A stretch of DNA of 64,000 nt from Trichocoleus sp. FACHB-40 (GCF_014695915.1 NZ_JACJPF010000035.1:1-64000), one strand, 5' to 3'; positions 1,656 through 18,144 are shown, numbered from the stretch's first letter. Program-made: numbers and translations. The notes: generated from the sequence alone by a model not told the origin.

Positions 1656-2057
1656 ATGCCTAAAAAAGCGATTTTATGTGTAGATGATGAAAAACTTATC
1701 TTAAGAAGCTTGCGCGATCAAATAATAAATCATTTTGGTAATCGCTATAGTTATGAATTTGCCGAAAGTGCAGATGAAGCTTTAGAAGTAATTGATGAGT
1801 TAAATGAAGAAGGTGTAAAAATTCTCATTGTTGTCTCCGATTGGCTAATGCCCAATATGAAAGGCGATGAGTTGCTGATTAAAGTCCATCAACAATTCCC
1901 GAACATTGTCACTGTACTGTTGACGGGACAAGCTGATGAAACGGCGATTGAACGAACTCGAAAGTACGCGAACCTGTATCGCTACTTAAGCAAACCTTGG
2001 GATAAAGCAACATTAATCGAAGTCCTTGAATCGGGATTGGAGGGAACTGATGAGTAA
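1656..2057 (+). CDS. single-domain response regulator (REC)
   Basis: This 133-residue protein is a lone receiver domain with no output domain. The acidic pair is D10-D11 (CVDDE), the phosphorylation site is D62 ([12 protein letters not shown]), the Thr is in LLTGQ, and the Lys-Pro is in YLSKPWD. A strong Shine-Dalgarno (GGAGCTGAGG) precedes the ATG. It follows the broken kinase by 132 bases and overlaps the next gene by 8 bases (ATGAGTAA), so the two are probably co-translated. Its original partner was perhaps the broken kinase; the hybrid kinase downstream is the other candidate. It most likely works as a phosphate shuttle or protein-binding switch. Confidence 0.9.
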
Positions 2058-4149
2058 AGGCACGATTATCTGCGTGGATGATGAAAGGGTTGTGCTGATT
2101 AGTCTCAGAGATCGGTTAACGCATCACTTCGGAAGCGATTATGATATTGAATTGGCTGAAAGTGGTGAAGAAGCCTTAGAAATTTTTGCCGAATTACTAG
2201 AAGAAGAGAGGGAAATTCTTCTAATTATATCCGACCAAATTATGCCAGGGATGAAAGGAGATGAACTTTTAATCAAAATTCATGCTCAGTATCCAAAAAC
2301 ATTGAAAATTCTTTTAACAGGACAGGCGAGTGTAACGGCTGTGGGTAATGCGGTTAATTTCGCTAATCTTTATCGTTATATTGCGAAACCTTGGGACGAA
2401 ACCGACTTGTGTTTGACAGTTACGGAAGCGATTCGGAGTTATGTTCAGGATAAAGAATTAGAAGAAAAAAATAAATTTTTAGAAAAAATTATTTTTGAAT
2501 TAGAACAATTAAACGCATCTTTAGAGGAACAAATCGCGTCGCGGACTTTGAAACTTCAACAAGCTAAAGAAGCAGCTGAAGTCGCCAACCAATCTAAAAG
2601 CACCTTTCTTGCAAATATGAGCCACGAATTGCGATCGCCTCTCAACGTGATTCTTGGCTATTCCCATTTAATGACCCGCAGCCCAACTCTACCTGGGGAA
2701 CACAAGGAAAATATCAGCATTATTAGCCGCAGCGGGGAACACTTGCTAACTCTGATTAACGACGTGCTGGATATGTCTAAAATCGAGGCAGGGCGCACCA
2801 TTATTAATGAACATAATTTTGACTTTTATAGTCTGCTTGATGACTTGGAAGATATGTTCCGTTTGAAGGCTGAGGAGAAGGGATTGCAGTTGCTTTGTAA
2901 CCGTTCTCTTGACGTTCCTCAATATGTGCGAACGGATGAAGTCAAGTTGCGTCAAGTGTTGATTAATTTACTCAACAATGCGGTGAAGTTTACCAAACAG
3001 GGAACCGTGTCGTTACGAGTGTCAGTTGTCACCGAATTGTCAAGTTGGGTTGAAACTACATTCACTTCAAACCTTCAAACACCAACGGACAACGGACAAC
3101 TGACGATTGCTTTTGAAATTTCAGATACGGGTATTGGCATTCCCCCAGATGAGTTAGACATCATCTTTGAAGCCTTTGTGCAAGCTAAAACAGGTCAAGA
3201 AGAATCACAAGAGGGGACAGGCTTAGGCTTGGCAATCAGTTGCCAATTTGTGCAACTGATGGGCGGACAGATTACTGTCAGTAGTGAGGTAGGACGAGGC
3301 AGCGTTTTCCAGTTTGCCCTTAAAATAAGCGCGATCGCATCTACTGATATCGCACCTCAACAACCGACTCGGCGAGTTATTGCCCTGAAGCCAAATCAAC
3401 CCCGCTATCGTATCCTGATTGTCGATGAGAAAGCGGACAATCGCCAACTGCTTCTCCTGCTGCTTTCTCCCCTTGGCTTTGACCTGAAGGAAGCCTGTAA
3501 CGGTCTGGAAGCGATCGCAATCTGGGAAAATTGGCAACCTCACTTAATCTGGATGGATATGCGGATGCCAGTTATGGACGGCATTGAAGCTACCAAATTG
3601 ATCAGAACTAAGGAAAAGGAGATGGGCCGAGGCGCAGAGGCGCAGATGGGAGGAGAAAAAGCGTTGTCCTCCTTGTCTCCAATTGCCAACCCCCAATCAA
3701 TAGTCCCTAATCCCACCGCCATCATCGCCTTAAGTGCCTCCGTTTTGAAAGGAGAACAAGCTGTACTTCTAGCGGCTGGTTGCGATGACTTTTTAGGCAA
3801 ACCGTTCTGTGAGGCAGATATCTTTGAAATAATTAACAAACATCTTGGGGTGTTATATGTCTACGACGAGAACCCAACTCAATCTACTTTCTTCGAGTCG
3901 GATTACCTCAATAATCCACTAACCCCAGCCGACTTAGCTGCTTTACCCGACACTTGGGTAGCCCAGTTACACCATGCGGCTGCCTTGGCAAATCCTAACT
4001 TAGCTATTAGTATTATTGAACAAATTTCAGCCGACCATACAAATTTGGCTAAGGGTTTGGCGAAATTGGTCAATGATTTTCAGTTCGACAAAATTATGGA
4101 CTTAACGAACTATCAGCATGATTTTAACTGTTATAGCAATCCTATTTAA
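2050..4149 (+). CDS. hybrid histidine kinase, REC-HisKA-HATPase-REC
   Basis: The start is the ATG at 2050, because the protein then begins [12 protein letters not shown] in line with the preceding regulator; an in-frame start 24 bases upstream is less likely. In the 699 residues the order is REC (D62), a coiled coil at about 135-180, HisKA with H192 in MSHELRSPL, HATPase (GTGLGLAIS), a second REC (D503 in WMDMRMP) and a C-terminal tail. It has no sensor domain, so input presumably comes through the N-terminal REC. Two stretches look like repeat-derived insertions: one within the HATPase (about 3021-3104) and one within the second REC (about 3612-3712). The tail ([10 protein letters not shown]) resembles that of the giant kinase downstream, although the last few residues differ. 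Confidence 0.9.
3021..3104. repeat. palindromic repeat inserted in the HATPase coding region
   Basis: The arms gtcagttgtc (3021-3030) and gacaactgac (3095-3104) are exact reverse complements flanking about 64 bases. The encoded peptide (roughly VVTELSSW to TDNGQL) has the low-complexity look of a linker between the N box and the G1 box. Repeats built on GTCAGTTGTC are common between genes in filamentous cyanobacteria. Here one appears to have been captured in frame. Confidence 0.6.
3612..3712. repeat. repeat-like in-frame insertion within a receiver domain
   Basis: Between helix 3 (IEATKLIRT) and strand 4 (IIALSAS) of the second REC there are about 33 extra codons. The paralogous receiver at about 10460-10500 has only a short loop there. 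The DNA contains gaggcgcagaggcgcag, an A-rich stretch and ccttgtctcc followed by cccaatc/cctaatccc units, a composition typical of cyanobacterial intergenic repeats. The frame stays open throughout. Confidence 0.6.
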
Positions 4150-4264: not shown

Positions 4265-7200
4265 ATGAACAATACAGAATTAAATACAGTAAAGGGCAAC
4301 ATTTTAATTGTTGATGACAACCCAGCAAATTTGCGATTGTTATCAAATATCCTAAACGATTATGGCTATGAAGTGCGATGCGTAACTAACGGGCAAATGG
4401 CTCTCACGACAGCTCGGTGGTTTCCGCCTGACCTGATTTTGCTTGATATCAGAATGCCGGGAATGGATGGTTATGAAGTTTGTTCTAAGCTAAAAGCTGA
4501 TGAAAAAACTCGCGATATTCCGGTAATTTTTATCAGTGTTTTGAGTGATGTAGTGGATAAAGTAAAAGCTTTTTCAGTTGGGGGTGTGGACTACATTACC
4601 AAATTATTTGAGCCGGAGGAGGTTTTAGCGCGGGTTGAGAATCAATTGAGCATCCGGAGACTATCTAAGCAACTGCGAGAGCAAAATGCACGGCTACCAG
4701 AAGAAATGCGAGTGCGTCGGGAGGCAGAAGAAAAATTTACCCGCGCCTTTCGTTCATCTCCGGATGCGATCGCTATCTTAACGTTGGCAGATGGATGCTA
4801 CATGGAAGTGAATGATAGCTTCTGTCGCATTTCTGGTTATTCTCCCGACGAGGCAATTGGTTCCACCTTAAAGGAACTAAATTTGTGGGTAAAACCACAA
4901 GACTGCCTCAAATTAAAACATCAGTTGCAGCAAACAAAAGCAATCCGCAACTGGGAATGTGATTTTCGCACCAAGACAGGCAAGGTGAAGACAATGCTGA
5001 TATCAGCAGAAATCATCGACCTGAATGGACAAGCGTGTATCCTCGCTGTTAGTAAAGACATTACAGAGCGCAAAGCTGCTCAACAGGGCCTAAAAGCCTC
5101 AGAAGCTGAGCTACGCGCTTTGTTGGCTGCCTTACCCGATGTAGTTCTAGTTATTGATGCACAGGGGCGTTATCTCAAAATCGCACCTACAAATCCATCA
5201 AATTTATACAAATCAGCCTCGGAATTATTTGGCAAAACACTCCACGAAGTTTTTGAAAAAGAGCAAGCTGATACCTTTCTTAGCTATATTTGCAAAGCCT
5301 TGGAAAGTCAGCAGACACTCAACGTTGAATACAGCTTAAACATTAGAGAGCAAGAAGTTTGGTTTGCTGTCAGTATTTCGCCTATGTCGTCAAACTCAGT
5401 CGTCTGGGTAGCACGGGACATCACACAGCGCAAACAACGAGAAGAGACGCTGCGAGAAAGCCAGCGTTTTATTCAACAAATTGCCGAGTCTAGCCCCAAT
5501 ATTTTATATCTCCACGACCTTAGCAAGCAGCGCAATGTCTATACGAATCGGCAAATTGCTGCGATTCTGGGCTATACGCCAGAAGAGATTCAACAAATGG
5601 GAGCAGCAATTCCCCAAAATCTGATGCACCCTGACGATTTCGCACGGCTCCCTGAATATTGCCAACAATTCGAGAACGCCTCTGACGGTGAAATTTTTGA
5701 GTTTGAGTACCGGATGAGGCACCGGAACGGAGAATGGCGGACTTTGGAGAGCCGGGATACCTTGTTTAGCAAAACTGATGATGGCAAGGCGAGGCAAATT
5801 CTCGGCACAGCTACTGACATCACGCAGAGAAAGCAGGCAGAAGTTGAAATTCGTCTTTTGCTGGAAACAACCCAAGCTATTAATCACTCTGTTGACGTTG
5901 ACAGTGCTTTAGCAGTGATTCTGCGGTTAATTTGTACGACAATCGGCTGGGATTTTGCCGAAGCTTGGATTCCTGCTAATGATGGTACGGTTTTGGAACA
6001 TAGTCTGGGTTGGTACGAATGCGATAACTCCCTAGAAGAATTCCGCCGCTATAGCGAAACACTCATATTTGCACCTAATGCAGGCTTACCAGGGCGAGTT
6101 TGGTCATCTGGTTCCCCAGAATGGTTAGAAGATGTCTCCCAAGCTGAACCGACAGCCTTCCCTAGATCGCAAATCGCCACCCAAGTTGGATTAAAAGCTG
6201 GTTTTGGTGTACCAATCCTCGCCAATAACCAAGTTTTGGCTGTCTTAGTCTTCTTTAAACGTACTAAAAGTACAGAAGATCGGCATTTATTTGAGCTAGT
6301 TAGTGCTGTTGCGGCTCAGTTAGGTTGGCTGATTGCACGCAAAAAAGCCCAAGCTGCTTTGTGCAAAAGCGAAGAACGTTTGCATCTAGCCTTACAAGGC
6401 AGCGGCTTGGGTTTGTGGGATTGGAATATTGCCACAGGAGAAACCTATTTCGACCCCCAGTGGAAGAAAATGTTGGGGTATGAAGTAGAAGAAATCGAAA
6501 ACAATTACCAGTCTTGGGAGCGGCTGCTGCATCCAGAGGATCTGCCAAAGCTTATGGAAGCTCTAAAAGCTTATCTGGAAGGTGCCACTCCTGTTTATAA
6601 TGCTGAGTTTCGGATGCTCTGTTCATCCGGTGAGTGGAAGTGGATTCGGGGTTCAGGCAAGGTTTTTGAGCGCGATGAATCAGGCGTACCCCTGCGGATG
6701 ACCGGGACGAATAAAGACATTAGCGATCGCATCCACGCCGAAAGAGCGCTCACTCTGGCAACCGAACGCCTGCAACATCTGCTCACCTCTAGCCCAGCGG
6801 TCATTTATAGCTCAAAAATATCAGGAGATTATGCAGCTACTTTTATCAGCGAGAACGTCAGCGCTGTTGTTGGCTACCAAGCGCGAGAATTTATAGAAGA
6901 TTCAAATTTCTGGGCTAGAAATATCCACCCAGAAGATGCGAAATGGGTCTTTCCCGAATTACCACGCCTATTAGAAAAGGGATATCACACCCACGAGTAC
7001 CGCTTCTTGCACAAAGACGGAACTTATCGCTGGCTATACGACCAGATGAAGTTAGTCAAAGACAAAGCTGGCAACCCCATTGAGTGCGTTGGTTATTGGG
7101 TAGACATTACAGAACGCAAACAAACAGAAGAACGTTTACGGCTGCTAGAACGAGCGATCGCAGCCTCCAGCAACGGCATTGTCCTTAGCGATGCCCAACT

Positions 7201-10200
7201 TCCCGACTGTCCAGTTATTTTCGTTAATCCAGCCTTTGAGTCTATAACAGGTTATTCGGCAGCAGAAACAATTGGCAAAAACTGCCGATTTTTACAAGGA
7301 ACTGACAAAAAGCAACCTGCTCTTGAGGAACTGCGGGCGGCAATCCGCCAAGAAAGAGAATGTCGCGTGGTTCTGCGTAATTATCACAAGGATGGCACGC
7401 TTTTTTGGAATGAATTTTCCGTTTCCCCAGTGCGAGACGCAACCGGACGCTTGACTCACTATGTGGGAATTCAGTCTGACATTACCCAAGAGCGTACAGC
7501 AATAGAAGCTCTGACTAAACAATTTAGCCGGACTCTAATGCTCAAGCAAATCACTGAGGAAATCCGCTCTAGTTTAGATCCTTCTCAAATCTTTGCCACC
7601 GCCGCCAATCAAATTTCTCATCTATTGACAGTCGATCGCTGTCTAATTCATACCTACGTCGCCGATCCGGAACCGAGAATCCCCATAGTAGCTGAGTTTG
7701 TAGCGACCGGGGTTCCATCAATGCTGTATGAGAATATTCCCATACTCGGCAACCCCCACGCCGAGCGGATGTTAGCACAAGATGCCGCCATCTCTTCGCC
7801 GGATGTTTATGCTGACCCTCTGTTACAAGCTGCTGAGCCATTTTGCCGCCAGAGTGGTTTGAAGTCAATGCTTGTAGTCCGGACTTCTTACCAGGGAGAA
7901 CCTAACGGCGCGATTGGGTTGCATCAGTGCGATCGCTTTCGCGTTTGGACACTTGGGGATATATCCCTCCTAGAATCAGTTGCGGCACAACTGGGGATTG
8001 CGATCGCTCAAGCTTCCCTCCTAGAACAAGAAAAACAACAACGCACCTACCTTGACTGCCAAAATCAACAGCTACAGCAACAAATCCGGGAACGCCAACT
8101 TGCAGAAGTGGCACTGCGCCAAAGCGAAGCCAAAAATCGCGCTATCCTTTGGGCTATTCCCGATTTGATGTTTCGGATGAGTAACGATGCCATTTACCTA
8201 GACTTCATTTGTAACAGCGAAGTGAAAAATCTGTGGCAATCAGAAGACGCGACCCTTTGCCAGCATATGAACTTCAAAGATTTGCCCCCAGAAGTTGCTC
8301 GTCGTTATGTACAACATATGCAACTAGCTCTGGATACAGGGAAACCCCAAATTTATGAACAGCAAGTTTTGATCGAAGGCAAACTGCAATACGAAGAAGT
8401 CCGGGTTGTAACCAGTGGAGAAGAGGAAGTGCTGTTCATAGTCCGGGATATTAGCGATCGCAAACAAGCAGAAATTGCCTTACAGCAACAAATCTCGCGG
8501 GAACGCCTGGTAATAGCTATGCAAGAGCGAATTCGCGAGTCACTTAACCTGGAAGAAGTCCTAAAAACAGCAGTCGAAGAAGTGCGACAGTTTTTGTCCA
8601 CCGACCGGACAATTATCTACCGCTTTAACCCAGGCTGGAGCGGCGTTGTCGCTGTCGAGTCAGTGGGAGAAGATTGGATGGCTATAATGGGCAGCGATAT
8701 TAACGATCCCTGCTTTGGGGAAAGCTATGTCGCCCCCTACCAGCAAGGTCGCATTCTCGCAATCGAGGATATTCACGCAGCTGGTTTAAAACAGTGCCAC
8801 ATTAGTTTCCTCAGTCAGCTTCAGGTTAGAGCTAACCTGGTAGTTCCCATTTTGCAAGGAAATAAGTTATGGGGACTGCTAATTGCCCATCACTGTAGGG
8901 GTTCTAGGGCGTGGCATTCTTCAGAGATAGAATCTCTCAGACAATTATCCGTGCAACTAGCGATCGCTATCCAGCAATCCACCCTCTTTGAACAAGCCAA
9001 AACTGAAATCATCGAGCGCAAGCAAGCTGAAGAGAAGCTGCGGCAAAGCGAACAGCGTTTTCGCGATGTGTCAGAAGCAGTTGGAGAATACCTCTGGGAA
9101 ATAGATTCTGAAGGTATCTACACCTTCATCACTGACCGGGTGAAATCCGTTAAAGGATATCCACCCTCACAATTAATCGGGCATAAGCTGATTGATTTCG
9201 TTGCACACGAAGATATCAAAAAAGTTGAACAAATATTGCGCGATGCTTCTAGGACAAAAAGCACCTTTAAACTAGAACATCGTAACATTACCCCCACAAA
9301 GGAAATTATTTGGGAGGAAGTCAATGGCATTCCACTTTTGGACAATAACGGTAATATTATCGGTTTCCGGGGAACTGGGCTAAACATCACACAACGCAAG
9401 CAAGCAGAAGCTGCACTGCAACAGGCTGCCTATGCTGCCGATGCAGCTAATCGCGCCAAGAGCGAATTCCTCGCCTCTATGAGCCACGAACTGAGAACGC
9501 CACTAAACGCCATCCTGGGATTTACTCAAATAATGACCCGCGACTCATCCCTATCCGGCGAACAACAGGAATATATAGGAATTATTAATCGCAGTGGGGA
9601 ACATCTACTAGAATTAATCAACGACATTCTAGAAATGTCCAAAATCGAGGCAGGCAGAATTACTTTTAATGAAAGTAGCTTTGACTTAGTTAACCTGCTA
9701 GAAAATCTGGAAGAAATGTTCCGGTTAAAAGTCAAATCTAAAGGCTTAAAACTGGAAATAAACTACGCCTCAAACATTCCCCAATACGTGCGGTCTGACG
9801 AGAGTAAATTGCGGCAAGTCTTGATAAACCTCCTGGGAAATGCCATCAAGTTTACTGAACAAGGTAGCGTAGTGCTGCGGGTGTCAGTTGTCAGTGAATT
9901 GTCAAGTTCTAACTTGGCAACCTTCCAACCTGACAACATTCAAACGCCAACAAGGGATAAACAACAGACAATCCGCTTTGAAGTCGAAGACACTGGACTC
10001 GGCATTGCCCCAGAAGAAATAAACAAGTTATTTGAAGCTTTTGGGCAAACAGAAGCTGGTCGGAAATCTCAGCAAGGAACTGGATTAGGTTTACCTATTA
10101 GCCGCAAATTTGTGCAACTTATGGGCGGAGATATCACCGTCAGCAGTTCTATAGGTAAAGGAACAGTATTTGCATTTGATATTCACATCAGCCTTGCTGA

Positions 10201-10909
10201 TGCTACTGAAATTCAGACAAAACAGCTACAACCTAAAGTAATTGCTTTAGCGCCTGACCAACCGGAATATCGCATCTTGGTCGTTGAAGATCGTCTGGAA
10301 AATCGCATTCTGCTAGTCAAACTTCTCACATCGATTGGCTTTGATGTCCGCGAAGCGGAAAATGGTCAAGATGCCATTACTTTATGGGAGAGTTGGGAAC
10401 CACACCTGATCTGGATGGATATGCGGATGCCTGTAATGGATGGGTATGAAGCCATCAAACGGATTAAAGGTCATGTGAAGGGCCATGCAACGGTGATTAT
10501 TGCCTTAACCGCAAGCGCCTTTGAAGAACAGCGAAACCTGATTTTGTCAGCAGGTTGCAATGACTTCATCCGCAAGCCTTTCCGGGATGCCGTAATTTTT
10601 GAAAAAATGGCTCAACATTTAGGGGTGCGTTACATCTATGAATCATTAGAAACGGTTCACCAGCAGAACCCAGAAGGCACAACAGCAGATTCATGCTTTA
10701 TTCTTCATACTTCATCTTTCCAAGAGATGCCTACCGAGTGGGTCGAAGCTTTATATCAGGCAGCAATTGAGGCAGATGCGGAGTTAATTTTAAGCCTTAC
10801 CGAGCAAATATCTGCTACAAATACTCCTTTGTCAAGCGCTCTTTCCAATTTGGTTGATAACTTTCAGTTTGAACAAATTACTAATTTAATTGAAGAATTT
10901 AATAAATAA
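4265..10909 (+). CDS. giant photoreceptor hybrid kinase with LOV and DXCF cyanobacteriochrome GAF domains
   Basis: The 2214 residues have GGAG before the ATG. In order they contain REC (D61), PAS repeats, a GAF at about 525-690, more PAS, a LOV domain at about 965-1085, a second GAF, PAS, a cyanobacteriochrome GAF at about 1405-1585, PAS, HisKA (H1741), HATPase (GTGLGLPIS), REC (D2052) and a short tail. The LOV domain shows GKNCRFLQG (C1007), NYHKDG, FWNEF and YVGIQSD, which are the usual flavin-binding residues. The cyanobacteriochrome GAF shows DPCF (C1483) and CH (C1511), 28 residues apart, as expected for DXCF types that link bilin through two cysteines. Blue or blue/green light is therefore a likely input (inference). 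The GGDEF-EAL gene starts 4 bases downstream. The first REC has YITKLF where YITKPF is usual. Confidence 0.92.
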   Translation: MNNTELNTVKGNILIVDDNPANLRLLSNILNDYGYEVRCVTNGQMALTTARWFPPDLILLDIRMPGMDGYEVCSKLKADEKTRDIPVIFISVLSDVVDKVKAFSVGGVDYITKLFEPEEVLARVENQLSIRRLSKQLREQNARLPEEMRVRREAEEKFTRAFRSSPDAIAILTLADGCYMEVNDSFCRISGYSPDEAIGSTLKELNLWVKPQDCLKLKHQLQQTKAIRNWECDFRTKTGKVKTMLISAEIIDLNGQACILAVSKDITERKAAQQGLKASEAELRALLAALPDVVLVIDAQGRYLKIAPTNPSNLYKSASELFGKTLHEVFEKEQADTFLSYICKALESQQTLNVEYSLNIREQEVWFAVSISPMSSNSVVWVARDITQRKQREETLRESQRFIQQIAESSPNILYLHDLSKQRNVYTNRQIAAILGYTPEEIQQMGAAIPQNLMHPDDFARLPEYCQQFENASDGEIFEFEYRMRHRNGEWRTLESRDTLFSKTDDGKARQILGTATDITQRKQAEVEIRLLLETTQAINHSVDVDSALAVILRLICTTIGWDFAEAWIPANDGTVLEHSLGWYECDNSLEEFRRYSETLIFAPNAGLPGRVWSSGSPEWLEDVSQAEPTAFPRSQIATQVGLKAGFGVPILANNQVLAVLVFFKRTKSTEDRHLFELVSAVAAQLGWLIARKKAQAALCKSEERLHLALQGSGLGLWDWNIATGETYFDPQWKKMLGYEVEEIENNYQSWERLLHPEDLPKLMEALKAYLEGATPVYNAEFRMLCSSGEWKWIRGSGKVFERDESGVPLRMTGTNKDISDRIHAERALTLATERLQHLLTSSPAVIYSSKISGDYAATFISENVSAVVGYQAREFIEDSNFWARNIHPEDAKWVFPELPRLLEKGYHTHEYRFLHKDGTYRWLYDQMKLVKDKAGNPIECVGYWVDITERKQTEERLRLLERAIAASSNGIVLSDAQLPDCPVIFVNPAFESITGYSAAETIGKNCRFLQGTDKKQPALEELRAAIRQERECRVVLRNYHKDGTLFWNEFSVSPVRDATGRLTHYVGIQSDITQERTAIEALTKQFSRTLMLKQITEEIRSSLDPSQIFATAANQISHLLTVDRCLIHTYVADPEPRIPIVAEFVATGVPSMLYENIPILGNPHAERMLAQDAAISSPDVYADPLLQAAEPFCRQSGLKSMLVVRTSYQGEPNGAIGLHQCDRFRVWTLGDISLLESVAAQLGIAIAQASLLEQEKQQRTYLDCQNQQLQQQIRERQLAEVALRQSEAKNRAILWAIPDLMFRMSNDAIYLDFICNSEVKNLWQSEDATLCQHMNFKDLPPEVARRYVQHMQLALDTGKPQIYEQQVLIEGKLQYEEVRVVTSGEEEVLFIVRDISDRKQAEIALQQQISRERLVIAMQERIRESLNLEEVLKTAVEEVRQFLSTDRTIIYRFNPGWSGVVAVESVGEDWMAIMGSDINDPCFGESYVAPYQQGRILAIEDIHAAGLKQCHISFLSQLQVRANLVVPILQGNKLWGLLIAHHCRGSRAWHSSEIESLRQLSVQLAIAIQQSTLFEQAKTEIIERKQAEEKLRQSEQRFRDVSEAVGEYLWEIDSEGIYTFITDRVKSVKGYPPSQLIGHKLIDFVAHEDIKKVEQILRDASRTKSTFKLEHRNITPTKEIIWEEVNGIPLLDNNGNIIGFRGTGLNITQRKQAEAALQQAAYAADAANRAKSEFLASMSHELRTPLNAILGFTQIMTRDSSLSGEQQEYIGIINRSGEHLLELINDILEMSKIEAGRITFNESSFDLVNLLENLEEMFRLKVKSKGLKLEINYASNIPQYVRSDESKLRQVLINLLGNAIKFTEQGSVVLRVSVVSELSSSNLATFQPDNIQTPTRDKQQTIRFEVEDTGLGIAPEEINKLFEAFGQTEAGRKSQQGTGLGLPISRKFVQLMGGDITVSSSIGKGTVFAFDIHISLADATEIQTKQLQPKVIALAPDQPEYRILVVEDRLENRILLVKLLTSIGFDVREAENGQDAITLWESWEPHLIWMDMRMPVMDGYEAIKRIKGHVKGHATVIIALTASAFEEQRNLILSAGCNDFIRKPFRDAVIFEKMAQHLGVRYIYESLETVHQQNPEGTTADSCFILHTSSFQEMPTEWVEALYQAAIEADAELILSLTEQISATNTPLSSALSNLVDNFQFEQITNLIEEFNK
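9881..9973. repeat. degenerate repeat-derived linker in the giant kinase HATPase
   Basis: At the same place as in the 699-residue paralogue, the DNA carries gtgtcagttgtcagtgaatt. An imperfect inverted partner follows, with gttgtcag (9887-9894) against ctgacaac (9930-9937). The shared site suggests that the insertion predates the duplication of the two kinase cores and has since decayed. Confidence 0.45.
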
Positions 10910-10913
10910 TAGA

Positions 10914-12746
10914 ATGAATAGCCATCAAGAATTTACAAATAAAGGTAACATTTTACTGGTTGACGATACACCAAATAATTTGCGCCTTTTGTCTGAGTTG
11001 TTGAGCGCACAGGGATATAAAGTTCGCAGTGTGACTAATGGACAAACAGCGTTAAAGGCAGCGTTGGCTAAACTTCCGGATATAATTTTGCTCGACATCA
11101 ATATGCCTGTAATGAGTGGCTATGAGGTCTGTGAAAAACTGAAATCTGACGAGATTACTCGCGTGATTCCAGTAATTTTTTTGAGCGCACTTGATGAAAC
11201 AATTGATAAGGTAAAAGCTTTTTCTGTTGGTGGAGTAGATTACATTACTAAGCCGTTTCAGATAGAAGAAGTTTTAATTCGCGTCGAGAATCAATTGGCT
11301 TTAAGGGCGGCACAAGTAAAAATTCTCCAATTGAATGCAGAACTTGAAATGAGGGTTAAAGAACGCACCTGTCAGCTAGAGGTAGCAAATCAAGACCTCA
11401 AGCAGGAAATTATTGAACGCAAGCGAGTGCAGAATCAATTGCTGCATATGGCTTTGCACGATCCTCTGACTGGCTTGCCCAACCGGGCTTTGTTCATGGA
11501 GCGTCTAGAACAGGCGCTCAGTCGTAGTAAACAACAACCAGATTATCAGTTTGCGGTGCTGTTTCTCGATTGCGATCGCTTCAAAATTGTCAACGATTCT
11601 CTCGGTCATCTCGTAGGAGACGAACTGCTCACTAGCCTCGCTCGTCGTCTCGAATCTTTCTTGAGCATGGTTGATACTCTAGCACACTTAGGCGGCGACG
11701 AGTTTGCTATTCTCCTAGAAGAACTCAAAGATATCAACATTGCTTCACTGCTTGCTGACCGAATTCTTAAAGAACTTTCCCACTCTTTTCAACTCTCCAG
11801 ACATGAAGTATTCATTAGCGCCAGTATTGGCATTGCTCTAGGCAATAGTGACTACGAAAAGCCAGAATATCTGCTGCGGGATGCAGATACAGCCATGTAT
11901 CGTGCCAAAGCATTAGGGAAAGCTCGCTATCACGTCTTTGATCCAGCCATGCACCAAGGAGCAATCCAACTTTTACAAATAGAAACCGACCTACGAAAAG
12001 CGATAAATCAGCAAGAATTTGTAGTTTATTATCAGCCCATTGTAGCCCTTTCCAGAAGCAAAATTATTGGGTTTGAAGCGCTAGTGCGCTGGCATCATCC
12101 CCAACGAGGGTTAGTTTCTCCAGCCGAGTTTATTCCTGTTGCAGAAGAAACAGGTTTAATTACCCCTATCGGTGCTTGGGTGTTGCGGGAAGCTTGCCAG
12201 CAGCTACGCATCTGGCAAGAACAAAAACTCACTCAAGAACCCTTAACTATCAGCGTAAACCTTTCGGTACGCCAGTTTTCCCAACCTAACTTAATTGAGC
12301 AAATTGACGAAATATTGGAGGAAACTAAACTTAATCCTTTTAGCTTAAAACTTGAAATTACAGAAAGTGCAATTATGGATAATAGCGAATCCGCAAAGGC
12401 GATTATCCACGAACTCAAAAGGAGGAAAATTCAGTTAAGTATCGATGACTTTGGCACGGGCTATTCTTCCCTGAGCTACTTGCATTTGTTTCCCATAAAC
12501 ACCCTAAAAATAGACAAGTCTTTTGTCAATCGCCTGGATAAAAGTCAAGAAGATATGGGGTTGATTCCAGCGATTATGAGTATGGCTCATACGATGGGTA
12601 TGGATGTGGTTGCCGAAGGAATAGAAACTCCTGAACAGTTAGCTAAACTGAAAGCGCTAAACTGTGATTTTGGTCAAGGATATATATTTTCTAAACCTTT
12701 AGAAAGTAAATTAGCTGTACAACTTATTACAGACCTGCTGACGTAG
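10914..12746 (+). CDS. response regulator with GGDEF and EAL domains (cyclic-di-GMP turnover)
   Basis: The start is the ATG at 10914 (MNSHQEF), since MNSHQEFTNKGNILLVDD matches the layout of the neighbouring REC starts; an in-frame start 24 bases upstream would overlap the previous gene. The 610 residues hold REC (D61, YITKPF), a coiled coil, GGDEF with intact GGDEF at 260-264, and EAL with E388 in GFEAL. The EAL catalytic set looks complete: SVNLS, ITES, DDFGTGYSS, KIDKSF and AEGIE. The product-inhibition I site (RxxD five residues before GGDEF) reads SMVD and looks absent. The protein may both make and degrade cyclic-di-GMP, probably under phosphorylation control by the adjacent giant kinase. 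Confidence 0.92.
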   Translation: MNSHQEFTNKGNILLVDDTPNNLRLLSELLSAQGYKVRSVTNGQTALKAALAKLPDIILLDINMPVMSGYEVCEKLKSDEITRVIPVIFLSALDETIDKVKAFSVGGVDYITKPFQIEEVLIRVENQLALRAAQVKILQLNAELEMRVKERTCQLEVANQDLKQEIIERKRVQNQLLHMALHDPLTGLPNRALFMERLEQALSRSKQQPDYQFAVLFLDCDRFKIVNDSLGHLVGDELLTSLARRLESFLSMVDTLAHLGGDEFAILLEELKDINIASLLADRILKELSHSFQLSRHEVFISASIGIALGNSDYEKPEYLLRDADTAMYRAKALGKARYHVFDPAMHQGAIQLLQIETDLRKAINQQEFVVYYQPIVALSRSKIIGFEALVRWHHPQRGLVSPAEFIPVAEETGLITPIGAWVLREACQQLRIWQEQKLTQEPLTISVNLSVRQFSQPNLIEQIDEILEETKLNPFSLKLEITESAIMDNSESAKAIIHELKRRKIQLSIDDFGTGYSSLSYLHLFPINTLKIDKSFVNRLDKSQEDMGLIPAIMSMAHTMGMDVVAEGIETPEQLAKLKALNCDFGQGYIFSKPLESKLAVQLITDLLT

Positions 12747-13332: not shown

Positions 13333-16300
13333 ATGATAAAAATGTCATCAAATTACACCTCAAACGCCGCCGCCACTTGGTTTAAAGTTCTTCTGATTGG
13401 GGACAATAAAGACGAGACGGAACGCATTGAAGAATTATTATCACGAACCTGCGATTATGCTAATTTTCGTATTTTTACAACCAACTTAGAGCGAATAGAC
13501 ACGCCACTAGCTCTGTTAAATAAAAAAAGCTTTGATGTAATTTTATTAGACATTTCCCTTTCCCACAATCAAGGATTTGATACCGTTGTCAGGATGCAAC
13601 AGTATCAGCTAAACATTCCGATTGTCGTACTCACCACAATAGAGGATGAAGAATTAGCGCTTCAATTTATTCAAGCTGGCGTACAAGATTATCTGGTAAA
13701 AAGAAACCTTGATAGTCAACTTCTAATTCGCTCTTTACGTCATGCAGTTGCGCGTCAGAAAAGACAAGAAGCTAGGCTACAACGCGAACAAAATAATCAC
13801 TCTGTTTTAGAGGAAGCAGCAGTCCACCGCGATGTTGCTTTGCCGAGGTTGTTCGTGCGCTCCAATGATGCAGCATACTCTCGATTTTGTGCTATATCTC
13901 TCGATCTATTATGTATCGCTGTCGATGGCTATTTCAAGTGTGTAAACTCAGCTTGGTCAAATACTTTGGGCTACACCCAAGAGGAACTTCTTGCTATACC
14001 ATTTATCGAGTTTGTCCATCCAGAAGACAGAAAAACTACTCTTGTTGAACTCCAAAAGCTAGAAAATGGCGCTTTGAGCGTCAAGTTTGAAAATCGTTAT
14101 TGCTGTAAAGATGGGTCTTATAAGTGGTTGTCATGGACATATACCCCATTTGCACAGGAAGGTTTGATTCACGGAGTTGCCCGCGATGTCACAGAAAGTA
14201 AGCTATCGGAATTAGTGTTGCGGGAAAGCCAGCGTTTTCTTCTTCAACAAATTGCTGAGACGACTCCTAATATTTTATATATTTATGACTTAGAATTAAA
14301 GCGAAATATTTATATAAATCGTGAGTTCACTACAGTTCTTGGTTATACAGCAGAAGAGATTGAAGCTATAGGAGAGGCAGTTATTAAAAATCTGATACAC
14401 CCTGAAGATTTTGCCCGATTTCCTCAACATTTCCAAGAATTAGAATTAGCCTCTGAAGGGGAAATCTTTGAGATTGAGTACCGGATGAGGCACGCCAATG
14501 GAGAATGGCGCACTTTTGTCAGCCGGGATACATTGTTCGCTCAAGCTTCTAATGGGAAACCGTTTCAGATATTAGGAACTGCTACAGACATCACCTCGCG
14601 AAAGCAAGCAGAAGATGAAATCCGACTCCTGCTGGCAACAACCCAAGCGATTAATGATTGCGAAAATTTTCAGGATGCCTTAGCGGAAATTCTGCGCTTA
14701 ATTAGTAGGACTATTGGCTGGGATATTGGAGAAGCATGGATTCCGGCTTTTGGTGCCACGGTTTTAAAATATGCTCAGGGTGGATACGGATGCGATCGCG
14801 AAGCCGTAGTCGCCTTGCAACATCGCGATCTAGAGGAATTTGTGCAACACAGTGAGCAATTAACATTTGCTGCTAATGTGGGATTGCCAGGGCGAATATG
14901 GTCATCTGGGCAACCGGAATGGATAGAAGATATTTCTGATACCCAAGAAGTTTTTTTACGTTCTTCAATTGCAGCAAGTACGGGATTAAAAGCTAGTTTT
15001 GGCGTGCCGATTGTAGTTGATAATCAAGTGTTGGCGGTTTTAGTTTTCTTTAAACGAAACAAAAGCGGTCAAGATTTGCGTTTGATTGAGTTAGTAAAGG
15101 CGGTTGCGACTCAGCTAGGTTTGTTCTGGCAGCGCAAACACGTAGAAGCTGCTTTGCGGCTAGGTGAAGAACGCTTGCAGATGGCATTAGAAGGTAGTGC
15201 TTTAGGTTTGTGGGATTGGAATATTCGCACCCACGAAGTTTATTTCGACGCGCATTGGAAGGGAATTTTGGGGTATGCAGTAGAGGAGGTTGAAAACAAT
15301 TTTCAATCTTGGCAACATCTAATACATCCAGAAGATTTGCCTAGAGCTATGGCAGTTTTGAACGCTTATCTGGAAGGTAGTATCCCCACCTATGAAATAG
15401 AATTTCGGATGCAATCTAAATCAGGAGAATGGAAGTGGATTTTGTCTCATGCCAAGGTGACACAGCGGGATGAAAACGGCAATCCGATGAGGATGACGGG
15501 TACTCATAAGGACATTAGCGATCGCAAACAGGTAGAAATTGCTTTGCGAGAATCGGAAGCACGAGAAAGGCACCAACGAACCGACCTAGAAATTGCCCTG
15601 AACGAACTCCAAAACGCCCAAGTACACCTTGTGCAAAAAGAAAAAATGGCATCCCTCGGTCAACTGGTTGCTGGTATTGCTCACGAAATCAACAACCCCA
15701 TCAGCTTCATCTACGGCAATATTACTCCTGCTAATGAATACGCTCAAAACTTAACTCGGCTAATTGAACTTTATCAACAGCATTATCCCACACCCCCAAC
15801 AGCAATTTCATCGGAGATTAAAAACCTCGATCTCGATTTTTTGAAGACAGACTTTCCGAAATTACTTTCGTCAATGAAAAGCGGTGCAGATCGCATCAAA
15901 GAAATTATCTGTGCCTTGCACTATTTTTCTCGCATTGACCAAGGCAAAATGAAGAAAGCTGACCTGCATTCTGGTCTTGAAAGTACCTTGATGATCTTAG
16001 AAAATCGCCTGAAAGAACAACCTGGTAGAGTTGCTATTAAGGTAATTAAAAACTACGGAAAGTTGCCATTAGTGGATTGCTATCCAGGTCAGTTAAATCA
16101 GGTATTTATGAATATTTTGGCTAATGCCATTGATGCGCTGGAAGAAAGGATGAAAGAAGATTTATCTTTTAACCCCCAGATTTGGATTAGCACAGAAATT
16201 GTCAGCAACCATTTATCCTTGGTTAGCAACGCCGAACCAATTGAGACAGATAAAAGAAAAGTTTTAAGAAATAAAGTTCTTGTTAGGGTTACTGACAATG

Positions 16301-16509
16301 GTAAAGGTATTTTGCCTCATGTAAAGAAACATATATTTGACCCCTTCTTTACAACCAAGCCTGTAGGTAAAGGCACGGGATTGGGGCTATCAATTAGTTA
16401 TCAAATTGTTGTAGAAAACCATCAAGGAAAAATTAGGTGTAACTCGTATTTAGGAAAAGGTACAGAATTTATAATTGAGATAAATTCAAAAGCGTTATTA
16501 TCAAGTTAA
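13333..16509 (+). CDS. multi-sensor histidine kinase, REC-PAS-PAS-GAF-PAS-HisKA-HATPase
   Basis: The 1058 residues begin with a receiver (D73 in ILLDIS). A PAS at about 195-300 follows, then a second PAS with RMRHANGEWRTF, a GAF at about 430-600, a PAS with GLWDWN, a coiled coil, HisKA (H784 in GIAHEINNP) and HATPase (GKGTGLGLSIS). The PAS-GAF-PAS block closely parallels part of the giant kinase upstream. The kinase core is a paralogue of the ethylene-receptor-like kinase that follows, sharing LVQKEKMASLGQL and the YPGQLNQVFMNIL box. The GAF lacks a bilin-binding CH pair. A second in-frame ATG lies 9 bases inside. Its cognate output is not visible. Confidence 0.9.
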   Translation: MIKMSSNYTSNAAATWFKVLLIGDNKDETERIEELLSRTCDYANFRIFTTNLERIDTPLALLNKKSFDVILLDISLSHNQGFDTVVRMQQYQLNIPIVVLTTIEDEELALQFIQAGVQDYLVKRNLDSQLLIRSLRHAVARQKRQEARLQREQNNHSVLEEAAVHRDVALPRLFVRSNDAAYSRFCAISLDLLCIAVDGYFKCVNSAWSNTLGYTQEELLAIPFIEFVHPEDRKTTLVELQKLENGALSVKFENRYCCKDGSYKWLSWTYTPFAQEGLIHGVARDVTESKLSELVLRESQRFLLQQIAETTPNILYIYDLELKRNIYINREFTTVLGYTAEEIEAIGEAVIKNLIHPEDFARFPQHFQELELASEGEIFEIEYRMRHANGEWRTFVSRDTLFAQASNGKPFQILGTATDITSRKQAEDEIRLLLATTQAINDCENFQDALAEILRLISRTIGWDIGEAWIPAFGATVLKYAQGGYGCDREAVVALQHRDLEEFVQHSEQLTFAANVGLPGRIWSSGQPEWIEDISDTQEVFLRSSIAASTGLKASFGVPIVVDNQVLAVLVFFKRNKSGQDLRLIELVKAVATQLGLFWQRKHVEAALRLGEERLQMALEGSALGLWDWNIRTHEVYFDAHWKGILGYAVEEVENNFQSWQHLIHPEDLPRAMAVLNAYLEGSIPTYEIEFRMQSKSGEWKWILSHAKVTQRDENGNPMRMTGTHKDISDRKQVEIALRESEARERHQRTDLEIALNELQNAQVHLVQKEKMASLGQLVAGIAHEINNPISFIYGNITPANEYAQNLTRLIELYQQHYPTPPTAISSEIKNLDLDFLKTDFPKLLSSMKSGADRIKEIICALHYFSRIDQGKMKKADLHSGLESTLMILENRLKEQPGRVAIKVIKNYGKLPLVDCYPGQLNQVFMNILANAIDALEERMKEDLSFNPQIWISTEIVSNHLSLVSNAEPIETDKRKVLRNKVLVRVTDNGKGILPHVKKHIFDPFFTTKPVGKGTGLGLSISYQIVVENHQGKIRCNSYLGKGTEFIIEINSKALLSS

Positions 16510-16584: not shown

Positions 16585-18144
16585 ATGTGGGAACTCTTAA
16601 AGGAGTTATTTTCATCAACTCAGTTTATTCCTCACGGTCACTGTTACCTTTGGCAAACTAAACTGGTATGGCTTCACCTCCTTTCGGACTTGTTTATTGC
16701 GATCGCTTACTTTTCAATTCCGGCGATGCTCCTGTATTTCATCCACGAACGGCAGGATATTCCCTTTCAAGGAATATTTGCTTTATTTGGAGCTTTCATC
16801 ATTCTCTGTGGCACAGGTCACTTGATGGAAATCTGGACTCTCTGGCATCCTACTTACTGGCTAACAGGCGTCGAGCAAGCCATTACCGCTCTGGTTTCCT
16901 GCTATACAGCTCTACAAATGGTAACGCTGCTGCCGCAATTTCTAGCTCTGAAAACGCCAGAACAATTAGAAGCAGTTAACCGGGAACTCCAAAGCGAGAT
17001 TGCTGAACGTCAGCGAGCCGAAGAAGCCTTACGTAACGCCTACGATGATTTAGAAATTCGGGTAAGCGATCGCACTGCGGAGTTATCAAAAACACTTTCT
17101 ATCCTTCAAACTGAAATGGCCGAACGCAAACAAGCAGAAGCCGCTTTGCAAGAATCAGAAGCACGAGAAAGAGAAAAATCTCAAGAGCTTGAAATTGCTC
17201 TGCACGAACTCAAAAGCGCCCAAGTCCAGCTGGTGCAAAAAGAAAAAATGGCATCCCTCGGTCAACTGGCTGCTGGCATCGCCCACGAAATTAATAATCC
17301 TACAAGTTTTATCTATGGCAATGTCACCCCTGCCATTGAATATGCCTCAAATTTACTAAAAATAATTTCTCTCTATCAAAGCCACTACCCCCAGCCATCT
17401 AACGAAATTCAAAACGAAATTGCCGTCCTCGACCTTGATTTTCTTAAAAGAGACTTTCTCAAATTGCTCTGGTCAATGAGAACAGGAGCAACCCGGATTA
17501 AAGAAATTGTTGCTTCTATGCGGAACTTTTCGCGGCTTGACGAAGCTGAAATTAAAGAAGCCGATTTACACTCTGGAATTGAAAGTACCTTAATGATTTT
17601 ACAAAACCGCCTGAAAGAACAGCCTAATAGACCAGCAATTGAAGTAATTAAAGAGTTTGATAAATTGCCCTTAGTAGCTTGTTATCCAGGTCAGTTAAAT
17701 CAGGTATTTATGAATATTTTGAACAATGCAATCGATGCTTTAGAAGAAAAAATAAATGAAGGTTATTTATTCACTCCGCAAATCCGGATTGCTACAGAAG
17801 TCAGATATCCGGAAGAAACTAATTTCAAATCCCTAATTCCCAATTCCCAATTGATAGTAATTCGGATTACTGATAATGGTAAAGGCATTACACCTTACGT
17901 GAAAGAGCATCTCTTTGACCCTTTTTTTACCACAAAACCAGTAGGAAAAGGAACAGGATTAGGGCTGTCTATTAGCTATCAAATTATTGTCGAAAAACAT
18001 CAAGGGAGACTCAAGTGTAACTCTCAATTAGGGGAAGGGGCAGAGTTTGCTATCGAGATTAATGCAAAAGCGAGAGTTAACGCCGCGCCTCGGTTCGCAC
18101 CAGCTTTAGTAGAAGTTCACGATAATGCGATTTTTCAAAGTTAA
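16585..18144 (+). CDS. ethylene-receptor-like histidine kinase (ETR1-type sensor domain)
   Basis: The 519 residues start with three membrane helices at about 30-125 that match the copper and ethylene-binding domain of plant ETR1 and cyanobacterial Etr1. The SDLFIAIAYFSIP stretch holds D35, Y42, I45 and P46. The ligand pair is C75 and H79 in LCGTGHL, with I72 three residues before the cysteine, equivalent to ETR1 I62/C65/H69. A coiled coil leads to HisKA (H234 in GIAHEINNP) and HATPase (GKGTGLGLSIS). Unlike Synechocystis Etr1 there is no obvious PAS or phytochrome-like GAF between sensor and kinase. The 75-base gap upstream ends in poly-A and shows no Shine-Dalgarno. Ethylene binding is inferred from the conserved residues. 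Confidence 0.9.
   Translation: MWELLKELFSSTQFIPHGHCYLWQTKLVWLHLLSDLFIAIAYFSIPAMLLYFIHERQDIPFQGIFALFGAFIILCGTGHLMEIWTLWHPTYWLTGVEQAITALVSCYTALQMVTLLPQFLALKTPEQLEAVNRELQSEIAERQRAEEALRNAYDDLEIRVSDRTAELSKTLSILQTEMAERKQAEAALQESEAREREKSQELEIALHELKSAQVQLVQKEKMASLGQLAAGIAHEINNPTSFIYGNVTPAIEYASNLLKIISLYQSHYPQPSNEIQNEIAVLDLDFLKRDFLKLLWSMRTGATRIKEIVASMRNFSRLDEAEIKEADLHSGIESTLMILQNRLKEQPNRPAIEVIKEFDKLPLVACYPGQLNQVFMNILNNAIDALEEKINEGYLFTPQIRIATEVRYPEETNFKSLIPNSQLIVIRITDNGKGITPYVKEHLFDPFFTTKPVGKGTGLGLSISYQIIVEKHQGRLKCNSQLGEGAEFAIEINAKARVNAAPRFAPALVEVHDNAIFQS

Follow-up and report, generated by a model that had tools for sequence, protein, structure and literature searches.

Can a single histidine kinase read light through a flavin and through a bilin at the same time? 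This question is raised by a gene at positions 4265-10909 of a 64,000-nucleotide stretch of DNA from Trichocoleus sp. FACHB-40 (NZ_JACJPF010000035.1:1-64000; this whole stretch is referred to here as the window), the product of which carries a LOV domain and a two-cysteine cyanobacteriochrome (CBCR) GAF domain of the DXCF type in one hybrid histidine kinase. An earlier, sequence-only reading had suggested that such a protein could integrate two light colours before one phosphotransfer output. Based on the findings described below, we favour, with a probability of approximately 0.6, a multi-input kinase in which LOV and CBCR act together and the adjacent REC-GGDEF-EAL protein is the target, light thereby setting the turnover of cyclic di-GMP (c-di-GMP).

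Domain layout and photosensory residues

The open reading frame (ORF) starts with ATG and contains no internal stops. A Pfam scan of the 2214 amino acid (aa) product identified two Response_reg domains, one at each end, three GAF domains and approximately seven PAS domains including LOV, which together with the ORF confirmed the single hybrid kinase with terminal receivers and additional PAS/GAF units that had been described from the sequence alone. The features of the gene are as follows.

4265-10909, + strand: LOV and DXCF-CBCR hybrid histidine kinase gene, 2214 aa, with full-length orthologs at loci L074 and L075
4301-4636, + strand: N-terminal receiver, residues 13-124, Asp in LLDIRMP
4730-5437, + strand: two PAS domains (156-270 and 288-391), missing in L074/L075
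5477-7129, + strand: PAS-GAF-PAS-PAS block, residues 405-955, 65-76% identical to the orthologs
7151-7519, + strand: LOV domain, residues 963-1085, by match to LOV structures
7283-7285, + strand: codon of C1007, predicted flavin-adduct cysteine of LOV, invariant in the orthologs
7580-8008, + strand: GAF domain without bilin cysteines, residues 1106-1248
8117-8464, + strand: PAS domain, residues 1285-1400, swapped in the orthologs (27-28% identity)
8492-9004, + strand: DXCF cyanobacteriochrome GAF domain, residues 1410-1580, by sequence and predicted fold
8711-8713, + strand: codon of C1483, the second (DXCF) cysteine
8795-8797, + strand: codon of C1511, the canonical bilin cysteine
9038-9409, + strand: PAS domain, residues 1592-1715, swapped in the orthologs (23% identity)
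9455-10183, + strand: kinase core of HisKA (1731-1797) and HATPase_c (1845-1973), by Pfam and motifs
10271-10618, + strand: C-terminal receiver, from residue 2050, Asp in WMDMRMP

Residues 963-1085 matched LOV structures of the PDB far above chance (best E value 3.6e-38). C1007 lies within GKNCRFLQG (motif GXNCRFLQ) and is followed by RNYHKDG, FWNEF and YVGIQ, such that the LOV signature previously noted (NCRFLQG, KDG, FWN and GIQ) was borne out. The Asn, Asn and Gln of NY, FWN and GIQ, which we take to be those of the flavin pocket, are all found in this segment, and the key LOV positions are invariant in both full-length orthologs.

Similarly, residues 1405-1580 matched bilin GAF domains of the PDB with a best E value of 2.6e-52. 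C1483 (in NDPCF) and C1511 (in QCHIS, followed by H1512) are spaced 28 residues apart, and the 61 residues spanning them align ungapped with TePixJ (4fof/3vv4/6p58), DPCF falling on DPCF and CH on CH. An AlphaFold model of the CBCR domain, with a predicted local distance difference test (pLDDT) score of 88, superposed on the blue form of TePixJ (4glq) at 1.2 Å over 141 columns, and a structure search with this model returned the dual-sensor kinase 6oap as top match (template modelling (TM) score 0.88). The ungapped alignment and the superposition thus uphold the two-cysteine bilin GAF that had been proposed. The GAF domain between LOV and CBCR (1106-1248) was considered as a second bilin site and rejected, as Ala/Ile occupy both cysteine positions. 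With regard to bilin supply, the host genome (G000) encodes one PcyA-family reductase (Fe_bilin_red, G000:C6:83840-84502, E 7.9e-78).

The kinase core motifs are intact (H-box SHELRTP at 1740, N-box at 1856, G1 at 1909 and G2 at 1938) and both receivers contain a phospho-Asp motif, as expected of a hybrid histidine kinase. No PHY domain was matched after the bilin GAF in the Pfam scan, which sets the protein apart from PAS-GAF-PHY phytochromes, and the domain scan found no ETR1_N membrane domain in the kinase.

Orthologs and distribution of the LOV-CBCR pairing

Full-length orthologs are present in two sister genomes of the same family (L074, 7327-13788; L075, 4339-10779); they are mutually 91% identical and align to residues 385-2214 of the window protein at 52-63% identity. 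Identity to the window protein is high in LOV (80-82%), the second GAF domain (80-81%), CBCR (73-74%), the kinase (70-72%) and the receiver (78-79%), while the PAS modules on the N- and C-terminal sides of the CBCR show only 27-28% and 23%, respectively, indicating that different PAS modules flank the CBCR in the orthologs. Between the two sister orthologs the ratio of nonsynonymous to synonymous substitution rates (dN/dS) is ≤0.34 for every domain.

The N-terminus of L074 and L075 is an ETR1_N ethylene-receptor domain (E 6e-41), which replaces the receiver and two PAS domains of the window protein. Within the window a closely similar domain occurs in another gene, two genes downstream of the LOV-CBCR kinase.

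16585-18144, + strand: ETR1_N histidine kinase gene, separate from the LOV-CBCR kinase

The first 226 residues of this kinase share 70% identity with the L074 N-terminus, and residues 1-151 of the LOV-CBCR kinase share 63% with the REC region of the REC-GGDEF-EAL gene downstream; these matches suggest that pieces probably moved within the gene cluster. The seven residues which we take to be those binding ethylene in ETR1 are all present in L075 and in the ETR1_N kinase of the window (7/7), and six of the seven in L074. Five proteins of the ETR1_N ethylene-receptor type were observed in the window's genome. PMC6682694 puts the number of ethylene-binding residues at seven.

The distribution of the pairing was assessed by a LOV search of 386 genomes of the phylum, in which 77 genomes contained a match with E ≤ 1e-36; 80 LOV regions were added to other loci and the active cysteines scored by profile alignment. 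Among 113 distinct LOV-cysteine frames, at least 16 proteins combine LOV with a two-cysteine CBCR, a count that covers the longer frames and the LOVs within the cut-off; these derive from 14 genomes, nine of them within the 386-genome sample. Many described proteins of this architecture would have counted against the earlier reading. None was found in the literature searched, but the pairing is encoded in at least 14 cyanobacterial species.

The long form comprises the window protein, L074 and L075. A short form of 790-991 aa (L032, L013, L014, L015, L017, L020 and L162) has LOV first and the CBCR approximately 250-370 residues on; among these, L032 (454-2880, G000:C85) is a second LOV and DXCF-CBCR kinase in the window's own genome, of 809 aa and with the order LOV-PAS-CBCR-histidine kinase. 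The proteins at L111, L112 and L113 measure 930-948 aa, L161 (G007:C7; 1492 aa) places the CBCR after LOV with nearly no spacer, and L173 and L186 (868-876 aa) have the reverse order, CBCR before LOV. When the named genome collection was searched for relatives over the full length, most of the 29 loci proved to be kinases of the Microcoleus type that have a CBCR but no LOV, and a search of plasmids found no close relative.

Two further proteins were noted beside these. In the 1828-aa frame of the paralog L076 (G000:C44) the LOV cysteine is kept and a CBCR-like GAF follows directly, with an insertion in the DXCF region; its canonical bilin cysteine is Pro and it was set aside as a two-photosensor kinase. 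L190 (G037:C97; 1931 aa) has LOV and two CBCR-like GAF domains lacking the DXCF cysteine, one with DPHF for DPCF and the other without the CH pair (PCLVEF).

Gene neighbourhood

The gene that follows the kinase is a candidate for its output.

10890-12746, + strand: REC-GGDEF-EAL response regulator gene, contiguous with the kinase gene or overlapping it, with intact GGDEF, EAL and DDFGTGYSSL motifs

It has a TTG start, with a later ATG right beyond the kinase stop, and the two genes form an apparent two-gene operon. A REC-GGDEF-EAL gene lies directly 3' of the kinase in all four genomes in which the locus was read (window, L074, L075 and L104), and the encoded protein is 77% identical to that of the window in L074 and 70% in L104 (Argonema antarcticum). 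The L104 kinase itself consists of the C-terminal part only (window residues 1531-2214, 68% identical), the remainder being lost at the contig end. Given this recurrent gene order, c-di-GMP is the likely output of the LOV-CBCR kinase.

Other kinases and receivers of the cluster are a single REC (1656-2057) and the genes at 2026-4149, 13333-16509 and 16585-18144. The hybrid kinase at 2026-4149 is 51% identical to the LOV-CBCR kinase over 533 columns of its kinase-REC-tail part, and the common region extends into the C-terminal tail after the receiver (10682-10906). At 453-1523 a histidine kinase frame, with HisKA before and HATPase_c after a single in-frame stop (1023-1025), adjoins a transposase fragment (DDE_3, 45-452) and looks like a decaying or truncated gene. 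From 21443 to 61224 there is a long series of small genes, mainly on the + strand, which includes an ABC2_membrane and ABC_tran/Wzt_C export pair, glycosyltransferases and an asparagine synthase, i.e. a surface polysaccharide cluster near the c-di-GMP genes.

Discussion

From this layout we infer chromophore binding, colours, the direction of the kinase response, the partner and the physiological output as follows. The protein would be a soluble multi-input hybrid histidine kinase in which blue light generates a flavin-cysteine adduct at C1007 of LOV, a domain that absorbs near 450 nm (PMC5812497). The CBCR GAF would bind phycocyanobilin at C1511, probably with isomerisation to phycoviolobilin, while a second, reversible thioether at C1483 would create a blue-absorbing dark state that converts to a green/teal-absorbing photoproduct. 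DXCF CBCRs typically bind phycocyanobilin, which they turn into its isomer phycoviolobilin; TePixJ absorbs blue in the dark and green after conversion, its second cysteine being attached to C10 (PMC11284453). As the LOV band near 450 nm and the dark-state band of a TePixJ-type CBCR both lie in the blue, blue light should drive both, and the earlier notion of two light colours holds in part: both dark states should absorb blue, and the CBCR photoproduct alone would add a second colour. Green light would reset the CBCR only, LOV recovering thermally, such that the computation may be one of blue intensity (LOV) with blue/green ratio (CBCR).

Placed in a row of PAS/GAF modules, LOV and CBCR would act through helical linkers, which are thought to integrate signals between serial sensors (PMC6798134), on one HisKA/HATPase_c core. 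This core would phosphorylate itself, the C-terminal receiver and, very likely, the adjacent REC-GGDEF-EAL protein, and the LOV adduct level and the blue/green photoequilibrium of the CBCR would thus be translated into c-di-GMP turnover. The N-terminal receiver would provide a phosphorylation input from an upstream kinase, in the position held by an ethylene-sensor domain in the sister species; as the orthologs carry that domain, light may not be the sole input. It is conceivable, if rather doubtful, that the ancestral form was a triple-input receptor as in L074/L075, in which ethylene (ETR1_N), blue light (LOV) and the blue/green ratio (DXCF CBCR) set c-di-GMP via REC-GGDEF-EAL, and that the gas sensor of the window lineage came to reside in a separate kinase of the cluster, a receiver similar to the one in the adjacent gene having filled its former position. 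With the gas sensor so relocated, the ethylene input may have turned from cis to trans.

Several points weigh against a light-integrating kinase that controls c-di-GMP. Gene order is the sole basis for assigning REC-GGDEF-EAL as the partner, and either LOV or CBCR could be blind, their assignment being by sequence and, for the CBCR, by fold. A one-piece model of LOV-GAF-PAS-CBCR (7130-9034, from three sequences) had a pLDDT of 40, too low to define the linker geometry. Finally, the window's genome contains 122 HisKA matches, 8 LOV frames and 16 CBCR frames, of which LOV and CBCR share three where approximately one would be expected under free shuffling among the 122; this overlap is not significant (P 0.07) and the pairing need not, therefore, be selected.

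The last of these points would suit a pairing that arose by chance as domains were shuffled in a genome very rich in PAS/GAF kinases, without selected light integration. However, at least two more species have retained the long form under purifying selection, and similar pairings recur across several separate LOV clades, and we consider such a chance origin unlikely. In the LOV tree the fused domains fall in three separately supported groups (the long form, the short form and the L111-L113 form), and the CBCR tree needs six changes, of which well-supported branches force at least two; both trees exclude L161, L162, L173 and L186. Several separate LOV-CBCR fusions are likely, although the weak deep branches leave this unproven.

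Alternatively, LOV or the CBCR alone may respond to light in the native protein, with its counterpart retained as a structural module of the PAS/GAF array, as many modules of that array are clearly non-photosensory and the degenerate L076 of the same genome has kept its LOV cysteine and lost the canonical bilin cysteine to Pro. Nonetheless, three orthologs have preserved every LOV signature residue and the two bilin cysteines, while the two PAS modules flanking the CBCR were replaced, which renders this explanation quite improbable. It is equally improbable that the kinase signals elsewhere, such as to the stand-alone REC (1656-2057) or to a regulator encoded far away, with an output other than c-di-GMP: the cluster does hold several kinases and receivers, but among these neighbours REC-GGDEF-EAL alone stays beside the kinase in the further genomes that were compared.

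A kinase that integrates LOV and CBCR signals would be a test bed for signal combination in serial PAS/GAF arrays, its two chromophores having the blue band in common but reverting by different routes, LOV thermally and the CBCR under green light. The short form (approximately 800 aa, L032) offers a compact model and a practical object for experiments and optogenetics.

Comparison with known systems

The searchable literature contains REC-CBCR, ethylene-CBCR and LOV-GGDEF-EAL proteins, neochromes, Ppr and CBCR arrays; a LOV-CBCR protein was not found described in the open-access literature searched, and an earlier description in subscription journals is possible. The passage of a 2022 review on natural multi-photosensor proteins gives neochromes, Ppr and CBCR arrays and does not name LOV-CBCR (PMC9614035). 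UirS/SynEtr1 (Slr1212) of Synechocystis unites ethylene binding, CBCR and a histidine kinase (PMC5812497, PMC6682694), as do L074 and L075; no LOV is described for it, whereas the window protein has LOV, and a receiver in place of ETR1_N. According to PMC5812497 (citing Cao et al. 2010), a LOV-GGDEF-EAL protein of Synechococcus elongatus alters c-di-GMP, and shares with our proposal the route from blue light to c-di-GMP via LOV, but does so in one protein without kinase or CBCR.

The DXCF CBCRs TePixJ, UirS/PixA and Tlr0924 resemble the window protein in the two-cysteine bilin GAF, TePixJ aligning ungapped at DPCF and CH, yet no LOV is described for them in the literature searched, and TePixJ is a chemotaxis-type transducer rather than a kinase. 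PPHK, the dual-sensor histidine kinase of Leptolyngbya JSC-1 (6oap), has the CBCR that best matches that of the window protein in both structure and sequence and, in line with the title of the BeF3- entry 6oaq, likewise combines REC and CBCR in one kinase; unlike the window protein it has DQYF, without the DXCF cysteine, and no LOV is reported in the literature searched. Neochromes join LOV to a phytochrome in a eukaryotic Ser/Thr kinase and Ppr of Rhodospirillum centenum joins PYP to a bacteriophytochrome, and in these respects both differ from the window protein. What they share with it is the union of two different photosensor types within a single polypeptide chain (PMC9614035).

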